From contig CAUJFL010000425.1 of NCBI GenBank assembly GCA_963169165.1, positions 1-53,340 on the forward strand: a stretch of 53,340 nucleotides of DNA. The letters are read 5' to 3'. This DNA is from Myxococcota bacterium (lineage in GTDB: Bacteria > Myxococcota_A > Polyangia > Polyangiales > Polyangiaceae). Positions 23,705-44,479 of the stretch are shown piece after piece. Position numbers and translations under genes: made by a program. The notes under the pieces were generated by a model. The model was not told the DNA's origin and did not search any database. It saw only the letters and a program-made list of their open reading frames with translations. How positions within the stretch are numbered: position 1 is the first letter of the stretch; every line of letters begins with the position of its first letter.

Positions 23705-24344
23705 CAGACGCAAGTCGAGGCGTGGTTACGAGAGCGCGCTCCGGCAGCGCCAGGAGGAGGAGACGAGGGCGCTGATCCTCCAGGCGTTCGGGGAGCAGGT
23801 CCGCGCGTCTCGCGCGGGCGAGTTCTCGCTCCCCGAGGTCGCGGCGCGGGCCGGGGTCTCCGTGCGCACGCTGTACCGTCACTTTGGCAGCCGTGAGGGC
23901 CTGTTGGACGCGCTGCAAGCGCACGCCGCGGCGCAGGTCACGCCGTCGCTCCCCACCTCTGTCGACGAGCTGCTCGGGCTCGCGCCGACGCTGTTCGCGA
24001 CGTTCGACGCCCACGCGCCGTGGGTCGAGGCCATGGTGCGGTCGGGCCCGGTGTCCGAGCTGCGGGCCGCGGGGAAGCCCCGGCGCGTCGCCTTGTTTCG
24101 CGCGCTCACGGCGCCGCTGGTCGAGGGGCTGCCGCAGGGCGACGCCGCCGCCGTGCAGGCGCTCATCAAGCACCTCGTCAGCGCCGAGACCTGGCTCGTG
24201 CTGCGCCGTGACTTCGGCGTCGACGGACCCACCGCGGGCCGCGCGGTGGCGCGCGCGCTCCGCGCCCTCGTCGCGCAGCTGGCCGAGGAGCACCGGGCCA
24301 CGTCACCCTCGCGCCGCGCGCGCCGGAAGGTGGCAGCAGACTGA
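23697..24344 (+). CDS. TetR/AcrR family transcriptional regulator
   Basis: SLPEVAARAGVSVRTLYRHFGSREGLLDALQAHAA HTH; divergent from the Rph-like gene. Confidence 0.88.
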   Translation: MKSRRKSRRGYESALRQRQEEETRALILQAFGEQVRASRAGEFSLPEVAARAGVSVRTLYRHFGSREGLLDALQAHAAAQVTPSLPTSVDELLGLAPTLFATFDAHAPWVEAMVRSGPVSELRAAGKPRRVALFRALTAPLVEGLPQGDAAAVQALIKHLVSAETWLVLRRDFGVDGPTAGRAVARALRALVAQLAEEHRATSPSRRARRKVAAD

Positions 24345-24393
24345 CATCCATCCATGCCCGCGCCGGCCGCACCCGTGGCAAACTTCGGAGACC

Positions 24394-26358
24394 ATGTCGC
24401 AACGCCTGGTCCGAGCCGTCGCCGCGCTCCCCGCCTTGCTGCTCGTCCAGGCGTGCGGCGCGGCGGACGATCCCGCCCGGGAGCTCGAGCAGCCGCCGAC
24501 CGCCGAGCGCTCCTCGGCGCTGGTCGCCTACGACTGCGGCGAATCGATGGACACCGGGTACAGCAACGGCAAGCCCTTCGCCATCACCGTGGTCACGGTC
24601 GACGGCGAGCCCGTCGAGGTGCAGACGGCCAACGCCTTCTTGACGATGGCGAAGGCCGCCGAGGGCGCCGGCGTCGACCTGCGCCTCAACAGCGGGTTTC
24701 GCACGATGGCCGAGCAACAGTATCTCTACGGTTGCTACATCAATTGCAACTGCAACAGCTGCAACCTCGCCGCGGAGCCTGGCTACAGCAACCACCAGAG
24801 CGGTCACGCGCTCGACATCGACACGAGCGGCGGCGCGGCCGCGTGGCTGTTCGCGAACGCGTCCAAGTTCGGCTTCGCCAACACCGTCCCGAGCGAGAGC
24901 TGGCACTGGGAGTGGTGGGGCGGAGGCTCGCCCCAACCCTACTGCGGGGCGCCGCCGCCGTGCGACCGCTCGGCCGGTGGGCTCACCTTCAGCTGCGACG
25001 GACCGCAGGCGGGCATGGAGTGCGTCAAGGTCGACGAGCCCGGGGATCCCGACTCGTGGGCCGACAACCACCTCTGCGGCCCCGCGGGGCTGGGGATGAA
25101 GTGGTCGTTCGCCGGCCCCCTCGCGGGGATGGACTGCACCCTGGTCGCCGAGGGGGCCGAGCCGCACGCCGCCGCCTGGGCCGACAACCACGTCTGCCTG
25201 CCGCCGCAGAGCCCGATCATCCTCTCCTGGTCGAGCGCGGGGCCGGTCGCCGGGCAGGCCTGCGTACAGTGGAACGAGCCCGCCGATCCCAACTCATGGG
25301 CTGACAACTACCTCTGCGTCGCCCCGCGCACGGCGTTCTCGAGCGGGCCGTTCACCTTCAGCGGCGCGGGGCCGGTCGCCGGCCTGACCTGCGAGAGCGT
25401 CGACGAGCCCGGCGATCCCGACACGTGGGCCGACAACTACCTCTGCAGCAGGGGCGATTTCGGGCTGCGCTGGTCGCACGCCGGCCCCGTGCCCGGGATG
25501 ACTTGCACCAACATCTACGAGCAGGCCGAGCAGGAGCCCGCGGTGTGGGCTGACAACTTTCTCTGCGCGCCCGACCAGACGCCGTGGACCTTCGCCTGGT
25601 CGACCGCGGGGCCGCTGGCCGGCAAGACCTGCGTCAGGTGGTACGAGGCCGCCGATCTCGCGGGCTCGTTCGGTGACAACTGGCTCTGCTACGAGCCAGT
25701 GCGCGACTTCTCGGCCGGAGGGTTCAGCTTCAGCGGAGACGGCCCCGAGCCGGGCGAGTCGTGCGTCAACGTCGCCGAACCCGACGATCCCGACTCCTGG
25801 GCTGACAACCACTTCTGCAGCGCCCAGCCGATCGGGATGAAGTGGTCGTCGAGCGGGCCCGTCGACGGCATGCGGTGCACGCCCGTGACCGAGCCAGCCG
25901 AAGCGGACGCGAAGGCCTGGGCCGACGACCACCTGTGTGTCCCGCCCGACGCGCCCTGGTCGTTCACGTGGAGCTCGGCGGGACCGCTGCCGGGCAAGTC
26001 CTGCGTGCGGTGGTTCGAGCACGCGGAGCCTGGCGTCACGTGGAGTGACAACTGGATGTGCGCCGAGCCCGCCCCGTCGAAGCCCGGCGGCGCCGCCGGG
26101 AGCGCTGGCTCGGCGGGCGCGGGCGCGGGGGGCGCCAAGGGGGGAGCGGGGGGCGCGGGCGCCGGGCACGCGCGGTCGGGCGCGCCGGGCGCGGGCGCCA
26201 CCGGAGGCAAGACGAACACGGTGATGAGCACGGAGCAGAGCGAGTCATCCGCCGCGTGCGGGGTGACCGCGCCGACCGGGCGATGGCGAGCTTGGCCGCT
26301 GATGGCGCTGGCTGGCGCGGTCGGCGCGGCGCGGCGCCGTCGAGCCCGCGGGCGGTGA
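24394..26358 (+). CDS. VanY-like D-alanyl-D-alanine carboxypeptidase lipoprotein with nine Cys-pair modules and MYXO-CTERM-like tail
   Basis: Lipobox LLLVQACG; M15 motif SGHALDID ... SWHWEWW; repeats of GPxxGxxC...WADNxLC; tail [35 protein letters not shown]. Confidence 0.85.
   Translation: MSQRLVRAVAALPALLLVQACGAADDPARELEQPPTAERSSALVAYDCGESMDTGYSNGKPFAITVVTVDGEPVEVQTANAFLTMAKAAEGAGVDLRLNSGFRTMAEQQYLYGCYINCNCNSCNLAAEPGYSNHQSGHALDIDTSGGAAAWLFANASKFGFANTVPSESWHWEWWGGGSPQPYCGAPPPCDRSAGGLTFSCDGPQAGMECVKVDEPGDPDSWADNHLCGPAGLGMKWSFAGPLAGMDCTLVAEGAEPHAAAWADNHVCLPPQSPIILSWSSAGPVAGQACVQWNEPADPNSWADNYLCVAPRTAFSSGPFTFSGAGPVAGLTCESVDEPGDPDTWADNYLCSRGDFGLRWSHAGPVPGMTCTNIYEQAEQEPAVWADNFLCAPDQTPWTFAWSTAGPLAGKTCVRWYEAADLAGSFGDNWLCYEPVRDFSAGGFSFSGDGPEPGESCVNVAEPDDPDSWADNHFCSAQPIGMKWSSSGPVDGMRCTPVTEPAEADAKAWADDHLCVPPDAPWSFTWSSAGPLPGKSCVRWFEHAEPGVTWSDNWMCAEPAPSKPGGAAGSAGSAGAGAGGAKGGAGGAGAGHARSGAPGAGATGGKTNTVMSTEQSESSAACGVTAPTGRWRAWPLMALAGAVGAARRRRARGR
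24964..26070 (+). repeat. Nine ~40-aa coding repeats in three-module periods (ABC)x3
   Basis: A: VDEPGDPDSWADNHLC / VDEPGDPDTWADNYLC / VAEPDDPDSWADNHFC; B: GLGMKW.. / FGLRW.. / IGMKW.. with GMxCT; C: CVQWNEPAD / CVRWYEAAD / CVRWFEHAE. Confidence 0.85.
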
Positions 26359-27759: not shown

Positions 27760-28254
27760 ATGGCTACTTTCATCGGGAGTTGGGCGAGGCGCATGCTCTT
27801 CGGGGCGATCGCCGGCGGCGCGTTGAGTCTGGCGATGCCCAACGTGGCCCACGCGAAGGCGGACGACAGCAAGACCGAGAGCCACGAGAAGGCTCCGAAG
27901 AAGGCCGACAAGGCGAAGAAGGCGACCAAGAAGAAGGGCCACGCCAGCGGCAAGAAGTCCGCGTCTCACAAGAAGACGGACAAGAAGGCCGACAAGAAGC
28001 CCGCCGCCAAGGACGAGCCCAAGCAGGACGATAAATCGGACGACGACAAGTCCGAGCCGAAGAAGACCCCGGCGCTGTCGAAGGGCGCGAGCACCGCCGG
28101 TGACTTCGACGACGACAAGGAAGACAAGGCCGAGAAGGCCGAGAAGAAGCCCGCCGAGAAGAAGGCGAAGAAGACCGCGAAGAGCGGCCACGCCAAGGAC
28201 TCGAAGGGCAAGAAGCACGCTGCAAAAAAAAAGAGTGTCACCAAGACCCAGTAG
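27760..28254 (+). CDS. Exported lysine-rich protein; probable N-terminal part of the DUF882/M15 protein in the -1 frame
   Basis: Signal peptide MATFIGSWARRMLFGAIAGGALSLAMPNVAHA then Lys/Asp/Ala-rich tract; stop TAG 28252-28254 shortly after an A9 tract. Confidence 0.7.
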   Translation: MATFIGSWARRMLFGAIAGGALSLAMPNVAHAKADDSKTESHEKAPKKADKAKKATKKKGHASGKKSASHKKTDKKADKKPAAKDEPKQDDKSDDDKSEPKKTPALSKGASTAGDFDDDKEDKAEKAEKKPAEKKAKKTAKSGHAKDSKGKKHAAKKKSVTKTQ

Positions 28255-28910
28255 AGATCGTCAGGCAGACGGGTGAGGGCCTCAGCCTCTCTCTCACCCG
28301 CTGCGACGGCGCCCTCGAAGAGCGCGCGCGACAGGACCTGAGCGTCCTGTTGCGGCCGCTCTCGGCCGCCAGGCCCGCCGCGCTCGCCGCGCCGGGACCC
28401 AGGGGCGAGATCGCTCCGCAAGTGAAGCTCGTCGACGCGGGCCTCGTGACGAGGATGCAGGCGATCGCGCGCGAGTTTCGCGGCAAGAAGGTCCACGTGA
28501 TCTCTGGCTACAGGCCGCAGAGCGACGGAAGTCATCACAAGCTCGGCAAGGCGATGGATGTGCGCGTCGACGGCGTCGCCAACGAGCGCCTCGTCGCGTT
28601 CTGTCGGAGCCTCTCTGACACCGGCTGCGGCTACTATCCCAACAGCTCGTTCGTGCACGTGGACGTCCGACCGCGGGGCACGGGCCACGTCTACTGGATC
28701 GACGCGTCGGGGCCCGGCGAGCGCGCGCGCTACGTGGCCGCGTGGCCCCCTCCCAAGGGCTCGCCGGCCGCCGAGATCCCGCGGCCCGATCACGCCGCGC
28801 CCACCGACGAGCACCTCCACGACGCGGCGGACGGCAAGAGCGGGCACGGCGTCGGCGAGAGCGATCGCGACGTCGAGGCGAGCGAGACCCCGGTCGACAC
28901 GGCGGGATGA
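28233..28910 (+). CDS. DUF882/peptidase M15-like domain (YcbK-like), -1 frame continuation of the upstream ORF
   Basis: Coherent translation from the A9 tract onward: ECHQDPVEIVRQTGEGLSLSLTRCDGALEERARQDLSVLLRPLS...VHVISGYRPQSDGSHHKLGKAMDVRVDGV...GCGYYPNSSFVHVDVR. No ATG/GTG start at its 5' end; ORF track starts only at TTG 28350. Confidence 0.75.
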   Translation, partial: ECHQDPVEIVRQTGEGLSLSLTRCDGALEERARQDLSVLLRPLSAARPAALAAPGPRGEIAPQVKLVDAGLVTRMQAIAREFRGKKVHVISGYRPQSDGSHHKLGKAMDVRVDGVANERLVAFCRSLSDTGCGYYPNSSFVHVDVRPRGTGHVYWIDASGPGERARYVAAWPPPKGSPAAEIPRPDHAAPTDEHLHDAADGKSGHGVGESDRDVEASETPVDTAG

Positions 28911-44336: not shown

Positions 44337-44479
44337 TCGCGGGGCGCGCGTTCAGCTGTCATCGTCTCCGCGAGGGAGGACGTGGCGCGCGTGAAGGGTG
44401 GCAGGCGGCGCGCCAGGCGCGGGTGAACCGCCGCGACCGACGGCTCCCACGGCTCCCCCCCCCCGAGCCCCCGCGGTCC

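Follow-up and report, generated by a model that had tools for sequence, protein, structure and literature searches.

A shared frame break at an A9 tract in the gene of a putative exported M15 (DUF882) peptidase of Polyangiaceae, probably inherited and expressed by transcriptional slippage

We describe the gene of a putative exported M15 (DUF882) peptidase in a Polyangiaceae bacterium whose reading frame is broken at a run of nine A's, and we put the probability at roughly two in three that the disruption is inherited and that the gene is expressed through transcriptional slippage on this A9 tract. The gene lies in the 53,340-nucleotide stretch of DNA that we analyzed (hereafter the window; 72% GC). 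We propose that RNA polymerase would insert one A at A9 in a fraction of the transcripts. The resulting A10 mRNAs would be read straight into the peptidase to give a 383-aa exported protein composed of a signal peptide, a Lys-rich linker, and a zinc peptidase, and from the A9 mRNAs would come an exported Lys-rich protein of 164 aa that lacks the peptidase.

Results

Two frames joined at a run of nine A's

The zero frame begins at ATG 27760 and reads ...AAG CAC GCT GCA AAA AAA AAG AGT GTC ACC AAG ACC CAG TAG across the tract. The features of the locus are as follows:

27760..28254, + strand: zero-frame ORF of 164 aa, the unslipped product, ending with TAG at 28252-28254; based on dN/dS
27760..27855, + strand: predicted signal peptide MATFIGSWARRMLFGAIAGGALSLAMPNVAHA, by inspection; also present in the congener G001 and in one-frame family orthologues
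28224..28232, + strand: A9 tract, the proposed transcriptional slippage site; identical in G001 (L002:1492-1500)
28227..28233, + strand: A_AAA_AAG heptamer in zero-frame phase, the alternative ribosomal -1 site
28233..28910, + strand: -1-frame segment with the M15_2/DUF882 peptidase domain, 225 aa; based on profiles, conserved residues, and dN/dS
28265..28304, + strand: hairpin with extended stem, GCAG-A-CGGGTGAG...CTCACCCG-CTGC; role doubtful
28350..28352, + strand: TTG, the first possible -1-frame start, at domain residue 40, within the predicted fold; a poor start
28536-28538, 28557-28559, and 28656-28658, + strand: probable zinc ligands His102, Asp109, and His142, from conservation

The initial annotation had given the coordinates, the frames, the A9 tract, and the zero-frame phase of A_AAA_AAG, and these proved exact to the base when the sequence was re-read. 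A second in-phase slippery heptamer, A_AAA_AAA, occupies 28224-28230. The -1 frame, entered at 28233, translates as ECHQDPVEIV... and ends with TGA at 28908-28910. In computed translations, one added A at the tract (A10) yields a fusion of 383 aa, in agreement with the length of ~383 aa anticipated earlier, while two added A's lead to a 172-aa dead end and three give the short product with one more Lys. The predicted fusion peptide over the junction is KKKECHQDPVEIVR; a junction-spanning peptide such as KECHQDPVEIVR would be expected from the fusion, and the C-terminus of the short form is SVTKTQ. The GC-position frame plot of the window is consistent with a switch of frame at about 28.1-28.4 kb, at a resolution too coarse for an audit of the assembly.

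We also considered the peptidase as a separate gene and rejected this. As the initial annotation had observed, the -1 frame has no ATG or GTG start of its own; no ATG, GTG, or TTG occurs between A9 and 28350, and the first candidate, TTG 28350, is a poor start because it falls inside the predicted fold. The 39 residues from A9 to this TTG (28233-28349) include a conserved Cys, DPVEI, and LTxCDG, and residues 1-50 of the peptidase domain are predicted to be part of the fold (pLDDT ~96). Since this segment is conserved and predicted to be folded, its translation must come from the upstream ORF. Export of the fusion likewise requires the upstream ORF, because the signal peptide is encoded there.

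Products of the gene

The claim that the -1 frame holds a full DUF882 domain was borne out by a Pfam match to PF05951 (Peptidase_M15_2/DUF882; E 9.8e-13, 48.5 bits against a gathering score of 27), with the domain intact to the TGA; PF08291 is its second match. H102, D109, and H142, which form an H-x6-D pattern with a downstream His, are invariant in 33 sequences. A sequence search of solved structures with the domain returned no match, and a fold search gave weak matches only, to the Streptomyces zinc DD-peptidase 1LBU and the related hedgehog N-domain. By family, the fusion is probably a zinc-dependent peptidase, with peptidoglycan as its putative substrate. It shares the family profile and the H-x6-D...H pattern with M15 peptidases of PF05951/PF08291 (E. 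coli YcbK/MepK type; Streptomyces 1LBU), but differs from them in its long exported Lys-rich linker and in an N-terminal Cys...CDG segment, which is typical of Polyangiaceae homologues and unlike the YcbK/MepK type and 1LBU. The fusion may be exported, perhaps with the basic linker tethering or targeting the enzyme. Lys accounts for 44 of the 164 residues of the zero-frame product; this short form would be exported as a basic chain that lacks the enzyme.

About 1.4 kb upstream (23884-26358, + strand) lies the gene of a VanY-type (PF02557, M15B) D-Ala-D-Ala carboxypeptidase in which WADN-x-LC segments recur, so that two distinct M15 peptidases are encoded close together. Downstream, a siroheme-synthase-like gene (PF13241; 28907-29626, + strand) overlaps the stop codon of the peptidase gene by ATGA, so slippage could also influence its translation. 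The corresponding gene of G001 starts ~100 nt further downstream, without overlap.

The tract and the break are shared with a congener

We searched relatives first and 108 family genomes next, and obtained one congener with the gene, G001 (JADLFU010000229.1), a metagenome-assembled genome of Polyangiaceae bacterium isolate SJ398. The peptidase domains of the window and G001 are 81% identical in protein sequence, and the DNA alignment spans the entire gene and continues into the following one. The A9, its codon phase, the frame break, and the zero-frame TAG are identical in both. The two junctions have GCAAAAAAAAAGAGTGTC in common, differ over the next five bases (ACCAA versus GAAGA), and agree again in GACCCAGTAGAGATC. 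Every indel 5' of the tract has a length divisible by three, which is the pattern that translation of the Lys-rich frame would predict. In both congeners the frame break lies at the exact border of the linker and the folded domain. A second peptidase paralogue (~46% identity) is found in both (L031, G000:C269; G001:C232) and has no long A tract; that of the window's genome (L031) is in a single frame.

The frame break is thus known from two genomes only, both metagenome-assembled. No further frame-broken homologue was found among the distinct family homologues fetched, a tally that covers the readable sequences, as a few fetched pieces ran off the end of a contig or had no unique motif placement. 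In these homologues the signal peptide, the Lys/Ala-rich linker, the Cys...CDG segment, and the M15 domain follow one another in one frame; the nearest outgroup (L058, 52%) is also one ORF, and A runs in the vicinity of the homologues' genes do not exceed 7. The ortholog alignment proposed in the initial annotation, which asked whether relatives are fused or keep the A tract, thus gives a divided answer: orthologues in the family read through in one frame and lack the tract, and the congener has retained both the tract and the break.

Long A runs are rare in these genomes. The 5.8-Mb assembly has five sites of at least nine A's, one of them an A10 (L101), and only ten sites of at least eight; its 6.6-Mb sister assembly has two sites of at least nine. 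In each genome one such site is the orthologous peptidase junction, in the same codon phase. The codons of the Lys-rich ORF tell a similar story: Lys is encoded by AAG 41 times and by AAA three times (40 and 2 in G001), and two of the AAA codons sit in the A9 tract, in the window and G001 alike. The tract opens with the sole GCA among 29-30 Ala codons, again in both congeners. Given the rarity of such tracts, the shared orthologous site, and the choice of codons, the A9 at the junction is more than chance. We also looked for other slippage genes in the genome and rejected this prospect, since by ORF inspection the remaining sites of at least nine A's appear to be intergenic or 5' of genes; one of them (L104, G000:C345:1682-1690) lies directly 5' of a lexA-like ORF. 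The longest homopolymer of the window is a C10 at 44455-44464.

Both halves are under purifying selection

Between the window and G001, the peptidase part in the -1 frame has a dN/dS of 0.21 (dS 0.69), and about 66 of its 142 differences are nonsynonymous (p ~6e-13 against a simple neutral expectation). For the Lys-rich ORF, dN/dS is 0.37 in the zero frame, against 0.77 and 1.09 in the two alternative frames (p ~0.001 for the zero frame against a simple neutral expectation), although this sequence is of low complexity and its alignment uncertain. Among the columns that are at least 90% conserved in homologues, the window keeps 45 of 45 and G001 44 of 45, and neither congener has further stops or frame breaks in the peptidase domain. 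As judged from the substitutions, purifying selection is shown to act on both halves, each in its own frame, with the Lys-rich figure to be taken lightly. That both halves are preserved despite the break implies that the whole protein would be made by slippage on A9.

Three options had been left open by the initial annotation: recoding, a frameshift mutation, or an A lost in assembly. The identical A9, break, and stop in the congener, together with the purifying selection on the two halves, clearly favour recoding over error or decay, so that the first option gains and the other two lose ground in this sequence comparison.

Transcriptional versus ribosomal slippage

We infer that slippage occurs in the cell, and that it is transcriptional rather than ribosomal. 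Transcriptional slippage is the most likely mechanism and fits the length of nine A's, the bias of slippage towards insertion of A, the need for a single A, and the two tRNA-Lys species. In many bacteria, selection against slippage begins to show at runs of nine (PMC1088944). Slippage at A runs mostly adds A's (PMC5574713), and an addition is what the peptidase frame calls for. E. coli dnaX frameshifting has been linked to a sole tRNA-Lys, and RNA polymerase slippage in T. thermophilus dnaX to two tRNA-Lys (PMC5009743); both genomes studied here encode tRNA-Lys(CUU) and tRNA-Lys(UUU). Against transcriptional slippage stands the preference of E. coli RNA polymerase for T runs (PMC6260861).

The same two proteins would arise if ribosomes underwent a programmed -1 shift at A_AAA_AAG or A_AAA_AAA, as they do on E. 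coli dnaX, and it was this kind of heptamer that the initial annotation stressed, mentioning transcriptional slippage on A9, now the preferred mechanism, only in passing. The heptamer is exactly in phase and conserved in G001, and ribosomal slippage may contribute, but as the main mechanism we consider it unlikely. Frameshifting at the E. coli site relies on there being just one tRNA-Lys, whose pairing with AAG is weak (PMC5009743), whereas here AAG is not left to tRNA-Lys(UUU), as tRNA-Lys(CUU) is present in both genomes. The conserved tract is longer than the 7 nt needed and includes the rare GCA codon. By inspection, no good Shine-Dalgarno-like motif is seen at the usual distance. A hairpin does lie downstream, with core arms at 28270-28277 and 28293-28300, and one of its pairs is compensatory (G28271-C28299 to C-G in G001, a single case). 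Yet no stimulatory structure occurs within a few nt of the heptamer: the stem starts 36 nt away (31 nt if its extension is counted), its folding energy is unexceptional, with z-scores that rank 9-10 among 60 homologous regions, and it is no stabler than the corresponding region of one-frame homologues. We therefore rejected the hairpin as a ribosomal stimulator, being too distant and unexceptional in rank, with one compensatory pair in two sequences too little to support it; that its arms lie too far off for a classical stimulator had been recognized from the start.

Phase variation, error, and decay

If the DNA itself switched between A9 and A10, the peptidase fusion would be turned on and off in subpopulations. 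A 9-nt homopolymer at a frame junction has the anatomy of a contingency locus, and a minority of A10 would be hidden by consensus assemblies. However, both consensus sequences have A9, the tract itself is short, and the genomes contain practically no other long ones, which makes phase variation improbable.

We give slightly less credence still to an assembly or sequencing error, in which the real tract would be A10 and the gene an ordinary single ORF. Homopolymers are the usual site of indel errors, both genomes are metagenome-assembled, and all more distant homologues read as single ORFs. Nevertheless, the tract has equal length in two genomes of different species, and the assembly contains an A10 at another site of this genome (L101) as well as the C10 of the window, so runs were not simply cut at 9. 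Independent recent A10-to-A9 changes in the two species are possible but less likely. A true pseudogene, with the peptidase inactivated by the break, is hardly credible: the break itself speaks for it, and the dN/dS of 0.21, the lack of more lesions, and the intact catalytic and conserved residues in both species speak against it.

Discussion

By its sequence, the peptidase gene is one of the '9A' disrupted genes (PMC1088944), with cross-species conservation in addition: a run of at least nine A's stands at the frame junction, an added A restores the frame to the homologous domain, and tract and break are conserved between species with the downstream frame under selection, albeit in two genomes only. 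Like the 9A/9T pseudo-pseudogenes (Baranov et al. 2005, PMC1088944), it is an ORF broken at 9A that slippage could restore and that has one-ORF homologues. Those cases are single mutations, perhaps not shared by isolates (PMC1088944), whereas the peptidase break and tract are common to two species and both halves are selected. Thermus thermophilus dnaX (PMC5009743, PMC1088944) likewise has a coding-strand A9 and two tRNA-Lys species. Its mRNAs with added A's are proven, where those of the peptidase gene are presumed, and its long product is zero-frame with slippage leading to the short one, while in the peptidase gene slippage is needed for the long product. In this respect the gene resembles Citrobacter rodentium tssM1 (PMC4256274) and Shigella mxiE, in which the full-length protein needs slippage and a short form is also made, although the tssM1 tract is longer (A11) and both forms were shown to be needed there (PMC4256274). 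With the ribosomal frameshift of E. coli dnaX it has the A_AAA_AAG heptamer and its phase in common, but E. coli dnaX combines a sole tRNA-Lys with close stimulators, in contrast to the tRNA-Lys(CUU) of the peptidase gene's host and the lack of any close stimulator found.

The main text of the GeneTack survey (PMC3711429) mentions no DUF882, M15, Myxococcus, or Sorangium, and we found no description of slippage in the DUF882/M15 family in the open-access literature. Slippage on A runs is known but uncommon, and the peptidase gene is a well-supported new example.

Slippage efficiency, and any role of the short product, are things that we infer. It is conceivable, if rather doubtful, that the ratio of slipped to unslipped transcripts serves as a genus-specific control of an exported cell-wall peptidase against a separately functional Lys-rich protein. 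If true, slippage in this GC-rich bacterium would have been selected as a means to regulate cell-wall hydrolysis and would not be a tolerated accident.

When a homopolymer breaks a reading frame in a metagenome-assembled genome, the usual verdict is an error or a pseudogene. In the present case, comparison of the two species indicates an inherited break and suggests that the peptidase is still made despite it. Few cellular genes are known to use transcriptional slippage, and our findings would add to them that of a Polyangiaceae cell-wall peptidase, in the setting of a high-GC genome nearly without long A runs.
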